From assembly GCA_963575745.1 (NCBI GenBank), contig CAUYUJ010003392.1, positions 348,501 through 412,500 of the forward strand: a DNA stretch of 64,000 nt, in the 5' to 3' direction. A program made the position numbers and the translations under genes. The notes below the pieces were generated by a model, which was not told the DNA's origin, did no database searches, and worked only from the letters and a program-made list of their open reading frames with translations. Position 1 is the stretch's first letter. Each line of letters opens with the position of its first letter. This stretch comes from Prorocentrum cordatum. Lineage: Eukaryota > Sar > Dinophyceae > Prorocentrales > Prorocentraceae. Shown here in pieces: positions 10,821 to 18,195 of this stretch.

Positions 10821-11012
10821 CTCTGGCCTCGGGCCCCCCTCCTGGCACCGCCCCCTCCCGACCCGTCGAGCTGCCCCCCCCCCCTGCACATCCCGCACAG
10901 GGGCGCCAGCCGGGGCAGCCCCTGGCGCACGCCTCCCCGCCGGAAGCCCTCCCCCCACGCTGCCCCGCAGGGTGCGCGACGCGAAGTGGCCCCAGGACGA
11001 GGAGGAGGAGGA

Positions 11013-11031
11013 GGAGAAGGAGGACGAGGAG
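11013..11031. repeat. LINE target-site duplication, 3' copy
   Basis: Exact 19-bp partner of 17550-17568, directly next to the poly(A) tail of the LINE (T-run 11032-11042 on the plus strand). Confidence 0.85.
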
Positions 11032-11203
11032 TTTTTTTTTTTGCATGCTCGGGCCATACGCACGAGGCTCTGGCCAGTCACCCTCCTGGTGGGGTGGCCC
11101 GACGGTGGCCAGGGGCGCCAGGCGCAGACCCAGGCCTACCGTCGGGCGGACAGCCCCTCGCAAGCGCACAGCACTGCCAGGTGGCAGTGGGCCTTGGACG
11201 GGC
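11032..11203 (-). other. LINE 3' UTR and poly(A) tail
   Basis: 161 nt follow the ORF2 stop (11206-11204, TAG). Then comes a run of 11 A on the minus strand, which ends at the target-site duplication. A homopolymer A tail rather than a short-repeat tail suggests that a polyadenylated transcript was copied. Confidence 0.8.
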
Positions 11204-14200
11204 CTAGTCCGACGATCCCGAGTCGTCCGAGCCGAAACCCACGGGAGGGATGGGTACCCCATCCTCCTCTGGGCGCCTGCTGACAAGCTGCTGGCGCCTC
11301 CGACCAGCCTCGGACCACTGTGGGCGAGGCTGCAGGCTCGGGTGCGACTGACTCGGGATGGGCATCGCGCGCGCAGCAGCACGTTCGCGCTGTGCCCGCT
11401 GCTGCCTTTGAATTTCTGCGGTGTTGTACCGCTCGGACTCTGAAACAAAATCTGAAAACCTTGGATGCTTGCCTGCCAGGAGACGATTCCTGATGTTCGC
11501 GCGGCCGCCACTCTTGGGAGGGCGACCTGGACAAATATCTGGCAAGCCTCTGAAAGCAAACTGGGCGTAGCGCCCGCAGACGAGACAAAAGACGACAGGC
11601 ACGGCAAAATGCGCTATTGCCATCTGGTGGCTGGCGTGAATGCCTTCGAGGCCGCGCCTGAACGCGCTGGCCAGTGGCTGACACGCTTGTCTCTCTCGTG
11701 CGACAGCTGCCTTATAAGATCGGGCGTACGTAAAACAAGCCCTGCACCTGTACGGTATCGGCCCTTGAAGAACCTCCCAGTCGTGAACGACGATGGTGGC
11801 CTGAACCTTACAGGGCAGGGCAGCTCTCTCGCTTTTGTGCCTGTTCCTCTGGCAAAGGGCGAGAACTCTGGGTGCATATAAACCTATCGCTCGAGCGGCC
11901 TCAATTTTGCGCTGCAGCTCCTGCAGCGCTGTCGGGTTGAAACTTGGGTGGCATTCCATTGCCGCCTTCGCCATCTTGTCCGCTGCTGTGTTGATCTCTG
12001 CAGCGAGCCTGGCCTCACCAGCCAGCTCATGAACATTCTGATGGCTCTTAACTTTGGAGGCCGTCTCTAGGAGGTGCCTGCTGTCCCGCGCAAGCGCTAG
12101 CTTGTGCAGGCCTGAATACTTTAGCTTGCTGCTGAGACGTGTCGGCAGTGGCCTAGCGTGCTGATCCAGGACCGCTTTGCAGTCCACCCAGGCCTTGGAA
12201 GGTTTGGTGAGGGCCTCCTGGAGGACCAGGAAGCCCATGTGCTCCCCAGCCTGAGAAGTCTGGGGAAGGCTGGCTGCCACAGCGCCATAAAATGAGGCCT
12301 CTGGGGCCCCGTCGGTACTGTAAGCCACTACCGAAAACGTCGCTCTGTCTAACTCCGCAATGCCTGTCTTGGTGCACGACCCGTCGGTTCCCGTGAGCCC
12401 CCCAAAGTGCGGAACCGTGTCTGGCTGTCCGTCGTGTCTGACAAATCGTACAATAGGCTTCTCCCTAGGCAGCGGAAAGTCATCGTGCTGCTCCCCTGGA
12501 TGCTCGAAAAGACCGACGCAGTACAGGGGGCTGTTCTCTGGCGCCTCCAGCGCGTCCTGCAAAACGTCTGGCGGCAGCAGCTCAGTCCTGAGGGCGACTA
12601 CCTCTGGATGCTGACAAGAGAAAAGACGGTGGTGTATGGTGTCCCCGAAGGCTTTACAAAGCGGGCATTCATTCGGCACATTGTAGCCTATATTGGCGAG
12701 TTTTTCCTCGGTCCACCAACCCTGGACCACAAGGGTCTGGAGGATCGCCTTAAACCTGGGGGGCAACTTCTTGCTTTTGGGGGAAAGCAGAGAACGGACA
12801 ATGTCGAAACAAACACGCTTCACGGGGGCTGGGCTGGGTATACTCTTAGCTGCCATGATTTCCCATCTCCTCAGACATCCTTGGTGAAGCAAATCAGAAA
12901 GCAGGCTCGGCGAGGTGTCAGTGAGCCTGACCGTCCTGCCGAAGTGGTCCTGCAGCGTAAATGCGGATGTGAAACTCCAGCCGATTCGTTGAAGCGCATG
13001 AGCTGCCGCGCTGAGTGGTCCTCGCACGGCGTTATAACTTGCATGTCCTGCTGGCTGCACATTACTAAAAATCTCCTTGAGCTCGAGAAGTCCGATGGTC
13101 CCTGGGGTCACATACTTGCCGAGCGTCGTGTTCCACACTTCCTGGGCCCACCTGAGGACTGGCCCGAGGGCCCAGCGATCGGCCCTGGACCCCGTGAGGG
13201 CGAAGGCCGCGCTTCTGGATTTCCTAGAGGAACACGGGGTAATCTGAGCAATCTCAAGAGATTGCAGCCTGTACAAGGACTTGTTGCTTAGCCCGTCGAT
13301 GGCGGCCCCGAAAGCCCCAGCGGGAAGGAGCCCAGTGGTGACAATCTTGCGACAACGCTGTCCCGCGGTCGCGGTGAGCTTACGCAGGCGTTGCCCCCTG
13401 ACTGTCGCAGTCCTGAGCCTGACCTTGCGCTTAGCAGCGGCGCCATTGCACCCGAAGGACTTGCCCGCCGTAAAGTCACAACCTAAATTGGTGGCAACCG
13501 CTTGGAGCTTGCCCCCTGAAGTCCCAAGGGCGGAGGTGAGAAGCCTGGCTAACGACACCGACGACGCAACGACAGCTCCTTTGTGAACCGCAATCCTGGC
13601 TTCTAAGTCAACCTCGATGAGTCGGACAAGCTCCTTGGCGGCACTGACCACACGCTTGAGCACCCTGAGCGTAGTGCCGTGACAGGTGATGGTCAGGTCA
13701 TCCAAATAGAAATCGAAATAGACTGCCGAGTGCAGCGACGTGATACGCAAGAAGGCTTCAAAACAATAAATCCTGACGTAGAGTATACAGAAAGAACAGC
13801 CTGCCACAATGCCGTTGGTGGCCGCCATAGGCTGGGCCACACAGCGCTTCCACGCTATGTGTCTCCAAGAGCCGTACCCTGCGAGATGATATGCTAGCAG
13901 AGTCTCAGGAAATCCTAAAGCCAGCGCACGGGCCCGCAACTTGCTTCTTTTGAAACGCTCAAAGAAGGCCTCCATGTCCCAGAGGACGCCCGCGGACGCC
14001 CCGCCTCCCGAGACGGCCCCTTCGGCTCTGAGACTCTGCCGCCATACCACGTCGACTGGCGATCTGCCAGCACCGCATGCAAACCAAGAGTGATCGTGCT
14101 TGGCAATCCAGTCCTGGGCGAAATGGAGGCGCAACTTGCCAGTGATTCTGTACATCATGGGAAAGATGCCGATGGGCCTGTAGCCTCCTGAAACCTTGCG

Positions 14201-16477
14201 AAGGAGGGCCACGAGGACCCACTGGAGCTGCCCAGGGAGCTCCCCCAGCACCTCGGAAACGTAGATGAGCTTGGCGAAGGCCTCTAGGGCCTCGTCCGTT
14301 AACATACTGAGATGCCTCATGTGGAACCCGTCGAGGGAGACCGCAGAGGACTTGGAGTAACTCTTGGAGATGTCCCTGAGAGCTTCTACTGAGGGGATCC
14401 CGATGGGCTCGTGACGGTCGTTGTCCCTGTGGAGGGGCTCCGCCGAGGGCTCCCAGAACTTCCCAAACTTGGCCTGGTAGGTGTCCAGGGTACTCTGAAT
14501 GGAGGCCGTGAGCTTACCCTCAATGACCACCGTGTCGGGCTCCCATTTGGTGCGCTCCTTAATGAACTTGTGAGCAGCCTTGGCCCCTTTGTCGAGGGCC
14601 TTGTCGACCCAATCCTTCCAGGAGCTGGCATTAGCTGACCGCACGTCTGAAATGACCTTCTTGGCACATGCGTCAGCTCTGGCCTTGAACGAGAGCAGCT
14701 GCGCGACAGTGGTGGCGATCTTGCTGCAGCAAAAAGCTTCGGCTTCAAAGTCAGCGTGCAAGGCCATGATATACTGCTGGATATCTCTCAGGATCACGCG
14801 TGTGCACTCGTTCTGCATCACGTGCTGGGGCCTGGCACGCAAAATTCTGGAAATGAGCTCGAAAATGGCTGGCCTAGAGGCTCTGCCAATAACCTCCCCT
14901 GCGTACCTTTCCTCCTCCACTTCCAAATAGCTGGCTAGTCGGTGCATGCGTGCAGCAATCCAGCTCGGCGCCGTGGGGAGGAGGCCAAACTGCTTGTGAG
15001 CTCTATCCTTGTTAGTTATAGACTTGAGTGTTGGCTGCGGGGCTCTTGCTCTCAAGCCAGTCGGCCTGCGCTCTCGAATCCTGGTATTGGTCCGCTGTGC
15101 GAGCTCGAGCTCGGCGGCGTTGGCCCAGTGCGCGTAGGCCGAGGCGAAGTTGTGACGTAACACAACCTTGTGACGGTTACCTAAAGAGGAAATGAGCTTA
15201 TTGATATGATATAAAACTTTATCCCATGAAACAGTGCTGTGATGCACTATGTCCTCTCCCTCCTCATCCTGATCGAATGAGGAGGGGAGGGGTGGTGTGG
15301 TGGGGAATTGAAGGACCTTGACCTCTCCAAAATCTGGTGGCAGATCCAGCATAACGGGGAAGTGCGGCCTAGCATCCCAGTCAAAATCGACGTCAACGCC
15401 CTGCACCGCGCAGGCGAGCTGTTGCTCGACGATGAACATGTCTATAACAGAACTGCTGGCCGTGCACGTGCCCATCGTGCAAACTGGTGCGAAGAGCTGA
15501 CCCTTGATATAGTTGCAGAACTCCGAATGCTCAAGCTGATCTTGAGTGACATTGAAATCTCCTGCTATGATGTACTGCAGCCCTGAGACCTTAACCAAGT
15601 CGGCTACGGCCTCGAGGATGGCAAGATTGTCTGGCGAGAGGCCCTGACTCACGTGCCCGTACAAGGAGAGGCAGAGGATGCCCGAGGTCTGGGGGAACTC
15701 CACAACGACTCCCAAGACGCGTTGTGGCACCAAAATACCTCCAGGGGGCCCAACGGGTTCCTCGAGAGTGTAGCACCCAAGATCTTCGGCAACGAAGATG
15801 GCGACCCCAGCTGACGAGCCTATGTCCCCTAGACCATTGGCCGAAGGGGCAAAGGCGGCAGTGGCAACCGACGGGGCCCAAAAACTCTTCCAGCCGTGCC
15901 TGGAGGCCCAGTCCGAGGCCTCGGCAATGCTTAAATCCGAGACGAGGTGCACCTCCTGAGCGAACAAAACTTTGGTGGGTCCCCACGCAAGCTCGAGGAG
16001 GCGCTTCTTGATGGAGCCCCAGGAGGACCCATTGAAAGTCTCGAAACGGGTGCACTGAGGAGAGGAGGGTGAGGAAGAAAATTTGGCCTTCCCAGCGCTG
16101 GCACACGCTGGCGAGACCTCTGATCCGAAAGACTGGCATTCACGACTCACCGTCGATGCCGTCGACGCTGTCCGCGCGCAGCCGTTACCCGTACGGGCGA
16201 TGGCCTCGCCCGCTGCCAGTCCCCTTGCTCGGCGCACCCAGCTGCCGCGCGGCCGCGGCCTGCTGGTCCTGATATGCGGCTCTGGCCTTCTGGATGGCCT
16301 CGAGCTCCTTCTTCGGCACGTGCTTAGCAAGGGACTCCATCTCAGTCTTGAAGAATTCGGAATCGAATATTGGCGTGTCCGTGGTAGATGGCACTGGTGA
16401 TGGTGGCGGCTCCGACCTCTCGGGCAATGTCTCCACCATGCTGGCCATGTCATTGATGAACTGCAGCATGTCTGCAT
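11204..16477 (-). CDS. LINE ORF2: endonuclease / reverse transcriptase / RNase H polyprotein
   Basis: Residue numbers count from the Met at 16477. An exonuclease-endonuclease-phosphatase domain spans about 145-380: N149 in FNGSSW, E175 in AQEV, D307 and N309 in AGDFN, D346 in VIDMF, H372 in RPHFP. The reverse transcriptase spans about 690-960: motif A D834 in WDMEAFF, motif B around TNGIVAG, catalytic D926-D927 in FYLDD (a YLDD variant). A CPLC...H...C knuckle follows at 1271-1288. RNase H spans about 1360-1505: D1365, E1412, D1432, H1479 and D1500. The C-terminus has CRAC (1578), CLVCG (1631) and an LLAGKHP tail, a Cys/His arrangement I associate with dinoflagellate LINE-like proteins. The product nicks target DNA and copies its own RNA. 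The true start is uncertain: the frame is open from about 16648, it overlaps ORF1 in the +1 frame, and residues up to about 97 are a shadow of ORF1. No Met occurs between residue 9 and M334, so +1 frameshifting or reinitiation is likely. Confidence 0.93.
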   Translation of the reverse strand: MQTCCSSSMTWPAWWRHCPRGRSRHHHQCHLPRTRQYSIPNSSRLRWSPLLSTCRRRSSRPSRRPEPHIRTSRPRPRGSWVRRARGLAAGEAIARTGNGCARTASTASTVSRECQSFGSEVSPACASAGKAKFSSSPSSPQCTRFETFNGSSWGSIKKRLLELAWGPTKVLFAQEVHLVSDLSIAEASDWASRHGWKSFWAPSVATAAFAPSANGLGDIGSSAGVAIFVAEDLGCYTLEEPVGPPGGILVPQRVLGVVVEFPQTSGILCLSLYGHVSQGLSPDNLAILEAVADLVKVSGLQYIIAGDFNVTQDQLEHSEFCNYIKGQLFAPVCTMGTCTASSSVIDMFIVEQQLACAVQGVDVDFDWDARPHFPVMLDLPPDFGEVKVLQFPTTPPLPSSFDQDEEGEDIVHHSTVSWDKVLYHINKLISSLGNRHKVVLRHNFASAYAHWANAAELELAQRTNTRIRERRPTGLRARAPQPTLKSITNKDRAHKQFGLLPTAPSWIAARMHRLASYLEVEEERYAGEVIGRASRPAIFELISRILRARPQHVMQNECTRVILRDIQQYIMALHADFEAEAFCCSKIATTVAQLLSFKARADACAKKVISDVRSANASSWKDWVDKALDKGAKAAHKFIKERTKWEPDTVVIEGKLTASIQSTLDTYQAKFGKFWEPSAEPLHRDNDRHEPIGIPSVEALRDISKSYSKSSAVSLDGFHMRHLSMLTDEALEAFAKLIYVSEVLGELPGQLQWVLVALLRKVSGGYRPIGIFPMMYRITGKLRLHFAQDWIAKHDHSWFACGAGRSPVDVVWRQSLRAEGAVSGGGASAGVLWDMEAFFERFKRSKLRARALALGFPETLLAYHLAGYGSWRHIAWKRCVAQPMAATNGIVAGCSFCILYVRIYCFEAFLRITSLHSAVYFDFYLDDLTITCHGTTLRVLKRVVSAAKELVRLIEVDLEARIAVHKGAVVASSVSLARLLTSALGTSGGKLQAVATNLGCDFTAGKSFGCNGAAAKRKVRLRTATVRGQRLRKLTATAGQRCRKIVTTGLLPAGAFGAAIDGLSNKSLYRLQSLEIAQITPCSSRKSRSAAFALTGSRADRWALGPVLRWAQEVWNTTLGKYVTPGTIGLLELKEIFSNVQPAGHASYNAVRGPLSAAAHALQRIGWSFTSAFTLQDHFGRTVRLTDTSPSLLSDLLHQGCLRRWEIMAAKSIPSPAPVKRVCFDIVRSLLSPKSKKLPPRFKAILQTLVVQGWWTEEKLANIGYNVPNECPLCKAFGDTIHHRLFSCQHPEVVALRTELLPPDVLQDALEAPENSPLYCVGLFEHPGEQHDDFPLPREKPIVRFVRHDGQPDTVPHFGGLTGTDGSCTKTGIAELDRATFSVVAYSTDGAPEASFYGAVAASLPQTSQAGEHMGFLVLQEALTKPSKAWVDCKAVLDQHARPLPTRLSSKLKYSGLHKLALARDSRHLLETASKVKSHQNVHELAGEARLAAEINTAADKMAKAAMECHPSFNPTALQELQRKIEAARAIGLYAPRVLALCQRNRHKSERAALPCKVQATIVVHDWEVLQGPIPYRCRACFTYARSYKAAVARERQACQPLASAFRRGLEGIHASHQMAIAHFAVPVVFCLVCGRYAQFAFRGLPDICPGRPPKSGGRANIRNRLLAGKHPRFSDFVSESERYNTAEIQRQQRAQRERAAARAMPIPSQSHPSLQPRPQWSEAGRRRQQLVSRRPEEDGVPIPPVGFGSDDSGSSD

Positions 16478-17363
16478 TGTCTGCGAACTTCTTCTTTGCC
16501 TCCTCGATCTTGGCCTTGGACGTCTTCGTGAACTCTGCGAGCGATACAGGAACCTCCTCTGGTGCCGTGTCGGCCCAGACGGACTTGGCGTTCTGCTCCT
16601 CGCGCTGCTGGTCGTCCATGGCCTGCTCGAGGCGCTTCTTCTGCTCGTCTATGGACTGGATGTTGGCGTCGAGCTGCTGCTGCAGCTCCTCCTGAACCTT
16701 CTCCAGCTCTGAAATCTGGTTCTTGATCTTCTCGACCTTCTCGGCCGCCCGCTGCACTCGGGTGTGGCAACGAGCCATGCGCTGCGCTGGCGGCAGGCTG
16801 GCAGCCTGCGCCGCGCGCGCCTCGACCAGGTCGGCCCTGGCCTGCTGCAGCTTGGCGGCGACGTCGGGCATGACGCTGGCGTCGAGCTGCTGGTAGGTGC
16901 TGACGAGAAGCTCGAGTTGCTCGATCTTCTTGTCCGTGTCGCTGGCGTCGGCCGCCTCGGGTGTGGGCGCTGACGCGTCCTTGCCCTTGCCGAGGCCGCG
17001 CGAGCCCTTCCCGCGGCCAGGGGCTGCGCCTGCGGGAGAGCTGCCAGCTGCTGGCGGCGGGCTGGCGCCAGCTGCCGCTGCCAAGGTGGAGACGCGCTTG
17101 GCGATGGCGTCGAGCTGCTGCTTGGAGAGCCCAGCGGCCCCGCCTGCACTGCCACCGCCCTTGCCACCGCCTGCGTTCTTGCCGCCGCCTGCGTTCTTGC
17201 CAGCGCCCTTGCGGCGATTGGCTCCACGCTGCGGCTGATCACCCTTGTCGTAGTAGAGCCCGCAAATATGACACCACAGCTTGCCGCTAGCCATAGGAGT
17301 CCAAGAGCGCGGGCCGCACTTCTTACACTGAACCCAAGCAGCAGGGCCTGCGGCCTTCGCCAT
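16185..17363 (-). CDS. LINE ORF1: zinc-ribbon and coiled-coil nucleic-acid-binding protein
   Basis: 392 residues. This is the first Met in the frame downstream of the spliced leader and 5' UTR; the frame also stays open upstream, but only through microsatellite sequence outside the element. Near the N-terminus is a four-cysteine module, C13-x2-C16-x14-C31-x2-C34 (CKKC...CHIC), then a Gly/Lys-rich basic linker (about 45-130) suited to RNA binding. A long coiled coil follows (about 143-260, heptads rich in E, K, Q and L), then a charged helical tail and a Gly/Arg C-terminus. The architecture matches the role of LINE ORF1 proteins, which coat the transcript and trimerise, but the fold differs from the mammalian type. 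It overlaps the ORF2 open frame (+1). Confidence 0.85.
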   Translation of the reverse strand: MAKAAGPAAWVQCKKCGPRSWTPMASGKLWCHICGLYYDKGDQPQRGANRRKGAGKNAGGGKNAGGGKGGGSAGGAAGLSKQQLDAIAKRVSTLAAAAGASPPPAAGSSPAGAAPGRGKGSRGLGKGKDASAPTPEAADASDTDKKIEQLELLVSTYQQLDASVMPDVAAKLQQARADLVEARAAQAASLPPAQRMARCHTRVQRAAEKVEKIKNQISELEKVQEELQQQLDANIQSIDEQKKRLEQAMDDQQREEQNAKSVWADTAPEEVPVSLAEFTKTSKAKIEEAKKKFADNADMLQFINDMASMVETLPERSEPPPSPVPSTTDTPIFDSEFFKTEMESLAKHVPKKELEAIQKARAAYQDQQAAAARQLGAPSKGTGSGRGHRPYG

Positions 17364-17530
17364 GGCTGAGACCGTGCCGTGCTGGCGAACTGCTCCTCTT
17401 GAGCGAGAATGATGAGTGCGAGAGGGCACCGTCCGGTGCACAAGCAAAGACTCACAGGCAGGCCCCTGGGACGCGGGCCGGGCCTGACCTGGAGTGCGCG
17501 CTGGCCCTGCGCCACCTCGAGAGATGGCAA
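17364..17530 (-). other. LINE 5' UTR
   Basis: 167 nt between the spliced leader and the ORF1 start. The boundary at 17530/17531 is the trans-splice junction of the parental RNA. Any promoter upstream of the parental splice acceptor would have been lost in this copy. Confidence 0.7.
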
Positions 17531-17552
17531 CTTGAGCCAAAATGGCTACGGA
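17531..17552 (-). other. Dinoflagellate spliced-leader sequence embedded in genomic DNA
   Basis: The minus strand reads T, CC, then GTAGCCATTTTGGCTCAAG, a match to all 22 positions of the published DinoSL consensus, whose first base is A, G or T. DinoSL is added to mRNA 5' ends by trans-splicing. Its presence at the LINE boundary shows that the reverse-transcribed RNA was a trans-spliced mRNA. It is not an SL RNA gene: no intron part with a GT donor and Sm site follows, and the sequence runs straight into the LINE 5' UTR. Confidence 0.93.
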
Positions 17553-17568
17553 GAAGGAGGACGAGGAG
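17550..17568. repeat. LINE target-site duplication, 5' copy
   Basis: GGAGAAGGAGGACGAGGAG, identical over 19 bp to 11013-11031. The bases beyond it differ (17569 g versus 11032 t; 17549 c versus 11012 a). The site is a GGA-rich microsatellite, but the internal gaagg and gacg interruptions make a chance match unlikely. Confidence 0.85.
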
Positions 17569-17760
17569 GCGGAGGAGGAGGAGGAGGAGGAGGAGGAGGA
17601 GGAGGAGGAGGAGGAGGAGGAGGAGGAGGAGGAGGAGGAGGGGGATGAGGATGAGGAGGAGGAGGAGGAGGAGGAGGAGGAGGAGGAGGAAGAGGACAAG
17701 GAGGAGGAAGAGGATGAGGAGGACGAGGAGAGGAGGAGGAGGAGGAGAGGAGGAGGAGCC
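17569..17760. repeat. (GGA)n microsatellite hosting the LINE
   Basis: Continues the GGA tract seen at 10996-11031, which the LINE split on insertion. Confidence 0.9.
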
Positions 17761-18195
17761 CAGGAGGAGGAGGGGGTGGCTCCAGCGGTGGAGAAAACAA
17801 GCCCGGCGACGAGCACCAAGCGCCCAGGGCGAGGGGGGGGGAGGCGTCCTCCCCCGGGGAGGCCAGGCAGGACGCCCCCGACTTGCAGAGGGGCGCGCCC
17901 CGCCTCCTGCGTGCCCTCCCGGCCCTGCCCCCTCCTGCCCGCCGCGCTCGGACCCCGCGAGCCCGCCCAAGACCGAAGCCCCTCCTGAGCCCGGAGCTGC
18001 CCTCGCCTCCGCAGCCGGACTGCGCCCCCCGAGGTCCGCCAGCCACGGCCTCGCCCCAGAAGGGCCCGTCGGCATCGGCGGCAGTACACGCGGTCAAAAA
18101 GTGCACCGACGCACAGCGGATCCGCGCCGCCGAGCCATGGGCGGAAGCTGCTCCCGCCAGGGCAGGCTGTGCCCGCCGCCAGTGGGGAAACCAAC

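Follow-up and report, generated by a model that had tools for sequence, protein, structure and literature searches.

How does a retrotransposon come to carry, as its very first nucleotides, the leader that its host splices onto messenger RNAs? The question is raised by a 64,000-nucleotide stretch of the dinoflagellate Prorocentrum cordatum (assembly GCA_963575745.1, contig CAUYUJ010003392.1, positions 348,501 to 412,500; hereafter the window), which contains on its minus strand a long interspersed nuclear element (LINE) of approximately 6.5 kb with two open reading frames (ORFs), beginning with the dinoflagellate spliced leader, DinoSL. Recycling of processed cDNA is reportedly a feature of dinoflagellates, as Slamovits and Keeling are said to have described in 2008. 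Our analysis makes it highly probable that the window element is a LINE copy of a leader-bearing mRNA and belongs to a wider leader-first habit with re-use of the copies, which the host may drive. The finding is larger than first noted at this locus: leader-first LINEs lie at 15 of 20 sampled sites, some of them with tandem leader relics.

The element begins with TCCGTAGCCATTTTGGCTCAAG, identical to DinoSL at 22 of 22 nucleotides, and is enclosed by a 19-bp target-site duplication (TSD), GGAGAAGGAGGACGAGGAG, whose right copy shares TCC, the first three nucleotides of the leader. A sequence-only reading of the window had placed the TSD-defined 5′ boundary exactly on DinoSL, and this is borne out: the complete leader stands at that boundary, as in a DinoSL-tagged retrocopy. 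The same reading held that the template was copied to its first nucleotide; copying reached that nucleotide or came within 3 nt of it, as TCC is common to leader and TSD and the origin of these three nucleotides, leader or target, cannot be assigned from the window copy alone. A chance leader is rejected, as the 21-nt core of DinoSL has its sole match with up to three mismatches here in the 64 kb, and none of 100 shuffled sequences contained any such match.

The TSD lies in simple sequence, and ordinary microsatellite similarity was considered and rejected, in agreement with the sequence-only reading. The window contains the 19-mer at these two places and nowhere else, and when the right boundary is slid along, the suffix matches fall from 19 to 14 and then to 6 or fewer. 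Among 4,899 left/right pairs of 19-mers drawn from purine tracts, two are exact, namely the TSD pair and one pure GAG pair elsewhere; of these matching pairs, the TSD pair is the one that touches both boundaries of the element. At the 3′ end, a T11 run on the plus strand, the poly(A) of the element, adjoins the left TSD copy, completing the LINE anatomy of a TSD with a 3′ A tail. Joining the flanks with one copy of the repeat restores one GGA array of 81 copies, as expected for the empty site, so that the element was inserted into a GGA/CCT microsatellite. With leader, 19-bp TSD and A11 at the exact ends, the template was a trans-spliced, polyadenylated LINE mRNA, and we regard the birth of the window copy from trans-spliced RNA as almost certain.

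Beyond the window copy, the comparison covered leaders elsewhere in the same genome and the LINE families behind them. The 4,128,499,153-base assembly contains 14,218 exact 21-nt leaders (7,201 on the plus and 7,017 on the minus strand), some of which will be spliced-leader (SL) RNA genes or cellular retrogenes; the reversed pattern gives none. Thirty leader loci (L004–L033) were sampled in contig order and not by content, and 20 of the first 21 listed were extended by about 8.8 kb (L034–L053), the one unextended site falling inside L040. Because the search selected exact leaders, the exactness of the outer ones carries no evidential weight. LINE-positive calls combine Pfam with tblastn searches among the loci and from the window ORF2. 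LINE homology (reverse transcriptase (RT), endonuclease (EN) or RNase H; E ≤ 1e-6) follows the leader on the sense strand at 15 of the 20 extended sites and on the antisense strand at none, and the rest of the window outside the element has none at that threshold. In a Pfam search of 15 long ORFs, selected from 13 of the 20 loci, 11 loci had an RT, EN or RNase H domain, the exceptions being L035 and L053. Leader-first LINEs are thus a common class in the sample, and they come from many families, with 26–34% protein identity in the best matches outside one pair. That pair, L038 and L049, is a single family, 91% identical over about 5.7 kb, whose common sequence starts at the leader, the CCT repeat aside. 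The best match to the window ORF2 is L050, which bears an RT and is 30.5% identical over 993 aa. The sequence-only reading had concluded that the enzyme source itself uses the host leader, and the leader at the TSD boundary together with the 15 LINE-positive sites uphold it.

Several sampled loci have features of their own. L051 (1022–9364) has a single open frame of 2,781 codons behind its leader, with RNase H and a weak RT, and L035 (2837–9838) one of 2,334 codons with no Pfam family. In L040, which contains two full leaders, a LINE ends in a CTC tract and is followed by the second leader, an arrangement that looks like insertions stacked in one microsatellite. The 5′ untranslated region (UTR) of L046, after leader and relic, begins TTGCCATATCCTCAAGG, close to TTGCCATCTCTCGAGG in the window, reflecting either a distant relative or chance.

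Tandem leaders bear on whether such copies are used again. Published relics are leaders whose first seven nucleotides have been removed by a new leader (PMC12014239, in the part available), which we read as probable splicing at the relic’s own AG; the same authors additionally propose TG as the acceptor behind a form that is truncated still more. In our sample, a second leader-like stretch lies directly behind the outer leader at 9 of 30 loci (p < 0.01 against 1,110 control positions), and in four of the nine it is an exact 15-nt CCATTTTGGCTCAAG. Seven of the nine are among the extended loci: L041, L046, L050 and L053 are LINE-positive, and L037, L048 and L052 are negative; the exact form stands at two of the LINE-positive loci (L041 and L046). 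Tandem relics behind LINE-positive leaders indicate that some leader-born copies were transcribed, trans-spliced and copied again. Judged from these sequences, both the recurrence of leader-first LINEs and the re-use of leader-born copies are very probable.

The 5′ UTR of the window element holds a probable older relic, TCATTCTCGCTCAAG, which, besides the leader, is the sole match of at least 12/15 to CCATTTTGGCTCAAG on either strand of the 64 kb. Dinucleotide shuffles give P values of 0.0028 (15-mer), 0.028 (22-mer, ungapped) and 0.010 (gapped), and 3 of 5,000 permuted motifs score as well. Another candidate, closer to the leader within the first 40 nt of the UTR, was rejected as not significant (P 0.29). 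If the older relic is real, RNA with a leader also gave rise to an ancestor of the window copy, and 118 nt from upstream were added in a later round.

CCT/GGA tracts host 22 of the 30 sampled leaders. The 50 nt upstream of the leader are at least 90% pyrimidine at 15 of the 30 and at most 10% pyrimidine at 7, and genome-wide the leader directly follows 12 pyrimidines in 4,110 and 12 purines in 1,371 of the 14,218 cases, against a background for either run of 1.8% each in the window and 1.1% each in the 20 extended loci. The 15 LINE-positive sites comprise 8 of pyrimidine type, 5 of purine type and 2 of neither, and the 5 negative sites 2, 2 and 1, respectively. A polypyrimidine tract as a fixed rule is rejected, as purine-type insertions are common (7 of the 30 sampled; 1,371 genome-wide). 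The base before CCGTAG is T at 27 of 30 sites (14 of 15 pyrimidine-type, 6 of 7 purine-type and 7 of 8 other), and because it is kept even at purine-type sites, the leader’s own first base was usually copied. This distribution suggests that the endonuclease may prefer GGA/CCT. Of 8,378 AGs examined in the window, only the one within the leader has upstream of it at least 234 AG-free nucleotides with at least 94% pyrimidine; this ranking, by AG-free length and pyrimidine share, was devised after the site had been seen.

The 3′ ends are more varied. A strict search for a TSD with an A-run succeeded at 1 of the 20 extended loci, L039 (A8, 15-bp repeat), and the window copy and L039 are the only two that look poly(A)-primed. 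By eye, L038 and L049 end in GTTACGTTCG directly before CTCCTCC, and L040 ends in ACGTTCA before CTCCTCC. These three 3′ ends (L038:6540–6760, L049 and L040) enter CTC repeats with no A-run, and their last bases, ACGTTCG or ACGTTCA, are similar. The template 3′ end at such loci was perhaps not an ordinary mRNA tail; our guess is that the RNA ran on into the downstream repeat and then annealed to the nicked repeat.

The coding content of the window element is that of a LINE in its architecture, with RT and endonuclease together in ORF2, both domain scores falling just below the Pfam cut-offs (Table 1). The sequence-only reading called the element intact, and this can be accepted in part: both ORFs are open, but ORF2 lacks an AUG before residue 234, in addition to the sub-threshold RVT_1 and Exo_endo_phos scores. 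The two frames overlap at 16185–16648, and the first methionine of ORF2 after the ORF1 stop, residue 234, lies inside the endonuclease. Expression of ORF2 would have to rely on frameshifting, re-initiation or a start at a non-AUG codon, unless the frame is disturbed in the window copy; the overlap contains no slippery XXXYYYZ site (Y being A or T). ORF1 contains one family of 33-nt repeats and no methyltransferase family at E ≤ 1 in Pfam, which separates the element from SymbioLINE-Dnmt. Long terminal repeats are absent, as no direct repeat of at least 30 nt joins the element ends.

Table 1 Features of the leader-first LINE and its insertion site (window coordinates)
Feature	Position	Strand	Basis or remark
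DinoSL, full 22 nt	17531..17552	-	5′ end of element
AG inside leader	17546..17547	-	read as the acceptor in relics of further dinoflagellate retrogenes (PMC12014239, part available)
TSD, 5′-end copy	17550..17568	.	exact 19-mer pair; overlaps first 3 nt of leader
TSD, 3′-end copy	11013..11031	.	exact 19-mer pair
GGA array on plus strand	17550..17773	.	sequence; pyrimidine tract upstream in element sense
Left remainder of split GGA array	10994..11031	.	flank joining
5′ UTR, 167 nt	17364..17530	-	leader and UTR contain no ATG
Probable older degenerate leader relic	17398..17412	-	12/15 to the 15-nt relic form
ORF1, 392 aa	16185..17363	-	CxxC pair near N terminus (by eye); no Pfam family above cut-off
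ORF2 frame after ORF1 stop, 1,656 codons and stop	11204..16174	-	open from 16648, +1 to ORF1
APE-like endonuclease	15350..16045	-	Exo_endo_phos E 2.2e-4, below cut-off; bounds by eye from motifs
Reverse transcriptase with YLDD	13628..14200	-	RVT_1 E 1.1e-6, just below cut-off; Pfam and motifs
zf-RVT zinc-binding domain	12608..12772	-	Pfam, E 5.9e-7, above cut-off
Possible RNase H-like domain	11939..12415	-	motifs by eye; no Pfam match; structure model uninformative
Poly(A) tail, A11 on element strand	11032..11042	-	sequence read

Searches around the element gave little. Other copies in the window amount to short matches, of 27 aa to ORF1 by tblastn (E 0.081) and three of 31–36 nt by blastn (E 0.35), and queries from the element and the sampled loci found no further RT-like sequence there. 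Ten of the other window ORFs of at least 300 aa have no Pfam family at E ≤ 0.01, and Rfam gave no match at gathering thresholds. No solved structure is an ORF2 relative at E ≤ 0.01, and alignment-free structure predictions of the RNase H and RT regions, with mean predicted local distance difference test scores of 42.3 and 35.3, were not used. In IMG/VR, 5 and 12 pattern matches yielded no relative confirmed by tblastn, and the RT had no match in phage records.

DinoSL was also encountered in three contigs outside the assembly. In a viral contig (L001:1800–2913; IMGVR_UViG_3300045993_001077), a gene with GC 0.49 lies between very AT-rich flanks (GC 0.14 and 0.19). One full DinoSL immediately precedes it, and another full copy stands 147 bp beyond the first. 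The gene has the look of a dinoflagellate mRNA that was copied into the genome of a large virus; a search for a TSD found nothing convincing, only one shared 8-mer. Two contigs binned into Dehalococcoidia metagenome-assembled genomes carry DinoSL, one followed by GTACGC, as in an SL RNA gene (L003:4334–4354), and one beside a TCA repeat at the contig end (L002:32–52); both are probably binning or assembly contamination.

The anatomy of the window copy shows that a full-length LINE mRNA, already bearing the host leader and poly(A), was reverse-transcribed by target priming into a GGA/CCT microsatellite. In the cycle that we propose, host transcription, presumably from a host promoter, would run through the inserted copy, a new leader would be added by trans-splicing, in many cases at the relic leader’s internal AG, and a leader-capped, translatable LINE RNA would thereby be kept available for copying. 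The sequence-only reading had asked where the promoter comes from if everything upstream of the splice acceptor is lost at each cycle. The question is a real one, but the loss at each cycle was a deduction, and tandem relics show re-transcription. As to whether leader-born copies can do without an internal promoter, the sequences leave us evenly divided. That the pyrimidine tract serves as a functional acceptor is a tentative suggestion. Marginally more speculative is the full picture of a guild of LINEs with no promoter of their own, which would favour CCT/GGA with the pyrimidine strand upstream, so that tract and leader AG would form a fresh acceptor and host polycistronic transcription and SL would rebuild the 5′ end in each cycle, the same machinery being the source of leader-tagged retrogenes.

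Several observations weigh against a general leader-first cycle. Five of the 20 extended sites (L035, L037, L044, L048 and L052) lack LINE homology, the matches at L046 and L053 are short or weak (1.2e-16 and 1.5e-7), and L037 and L048, both LINE-negative, account for two of the four tandem relics of exact form. The older relic in the window UTR was noticed after the fact, and its statistics are moderate. The polyadenylated template claimed by the sequence-only reading fits the window copy and is not supported as a general rule: among the 20 loci, all 17 of tract type lack a run of A6 or longer entering a 3′ tract of the same type, according to a script that cannot recognise eroded tails or ends lying outside the retrieved sequence. 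The 3:1 pyrimidine bias, finally, could stem from pairing of the leader’s TCC end with the target and not from expression. On this account the endonuclease cuts GGA/CCT, and the leader’s 5′ TCC pairs with CCT at the second junction, favouring one orientation. The three nucleotides common to leader and TSD in the window copy agree with it, as does the fit of TCC to a CCT target; against it, the T before CCGTAG, present even at 6 of 7 purine-type sites, is mostly the leader’s own base and not a borrowed one, and the 1,371 purine-type insertions are numerous. We rate this account a strong competitor that falls somewhat short of even.

The leader RNA could instead be an expression mRNA copied by accident into sterile copies, the normal cycle using unspliced RNA from an internal promoter. 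Precedents exist: dinoflagellates commonly have cellular retrogenes that bear leader relics (PMC6050394, in the part available), the trypanosomatid LINE promoter Pr77 yields unspliced RNA (PMC8190864, likewise in part), and in Caenorhabditis elegans, within the available part of PMC3315495, no trans-splicing of the 8-kb Cer1 RNA at the SL1 site was detected, and a short Cer1 mRNA occurs with and without SL1. Three of the five LINE-negative extended sites (L037, L048 and L052) also have second relics, as cellular retrogenes would. Against this, four of the 15 leaders with LINE homology are followed by a second relic at p < 0.01, which argues that such copies are fertile, and two copies of one family that have diverged by 9% (L038 and L049) both begin at the leader; accidental, sterile copying is improbable. 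Still less probable is a leader that the element inherits as its own sequence, by mimicry, with no trans-splicing in each cycle. The structure of a single copy would be identical under either explanation, and the leader on a dinoflagellate RNA virus has been termed possible mimicry (PMC10235124, in part), but second relics trimmed by 7 nt (exact at 4 of 30 loci, L041 and L046 being LINE-positive) are the product expected from re-splicing at the relic AG, and the leader is common to diverse families. An assembly chimera, cDNA contamination or chance can be practically dismissed even though the evidence comes from one assembly, as cDNA would have neither a TSD nor a split microsatellite, the 14,218 leaders contrast with none for the reversed control, and similar anatomy recurs at independent loci. 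Copying of trans-spliced LINE mRNA, repeated across families, accounts best for these observations.

LINEs with a leader are candidates for the enzyme source that retroposed dinoflagellate genes on a massive scale, the leader marking their own cycle. They offer a possible answer to how a LINE survives with no carried promoter, and a concrete CCT/GGA site preference may tie LINEs to the microsatellites of very large dinoflagellate genomes.

In the literature searched, which included the available parts of PMC3229502, PMC11453091, PMC7245778, PMC8045281, PMC9399869, PMC7557087 and PMC7789003 and few subscription papers, we found no genomic LINE with a spliced leader at its start and no GGA/CCT preference of dinoflagellate LINEs. 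Related systems are compared here as far as the available parts of the cited papers go. The window element resembles the DinoSL-tagged retrogenes of dinoflagellates (PMC6050394, PMC12014239) in carrying the leader in DNA, in the 7-nt trimming at an internal AG and in tandem relics, but the cargo described there is cellular genes; in this genome LINEs of many families are themselves the cargo, mostly at CCT/GGA sites among those sampled. With SymbioLINE and other dinoflagellate LINEs it shares ORF1 and an EN–RT ORF2 (PMC5890265, in whose main text the term ‘spliced leader’ has no occurrence); unlike SymbioLINE, its ORF1 shows no methyltransferase domain. The host of the L1Tc/ingi LINEs likewise transcribes polycistronically and trans-splices, but these elements have the Pr77 internal promoter and ribozyme and an unspliced RNA (PMC8190864), as opposed to the trans-spliced template here. 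SART1Bm (PMC7265360) and Utopia (PMC4640811) also insert into simple repeats or other repetitive targets, telomeric repeats and U2 genes, respectively, the combination of GGA/CCT targeting and a leader not being seen there. Hydra transposons also use host trans-splicing, in 30.9% and 29.7% of transposable-element reads (Iso-Seq, two strains), a case that concerns transcripts, genomic copies starting at the leader not being described in the part available (PMC12220107). Also comparable are the endogenous viral elements of dinoRNAV (PMC10235124), in which a leader lies no more than 500 bp from retroposed RNA, as for 6 of 26 RNA-dependent RNA polymerase ORFs on Symbiodinium microadriaticum chromosomes, and LINEs are the suspected machinery; there the cargo is viral, whereas in Prorocentrum cordatum the suspected machine itself bears the leader.

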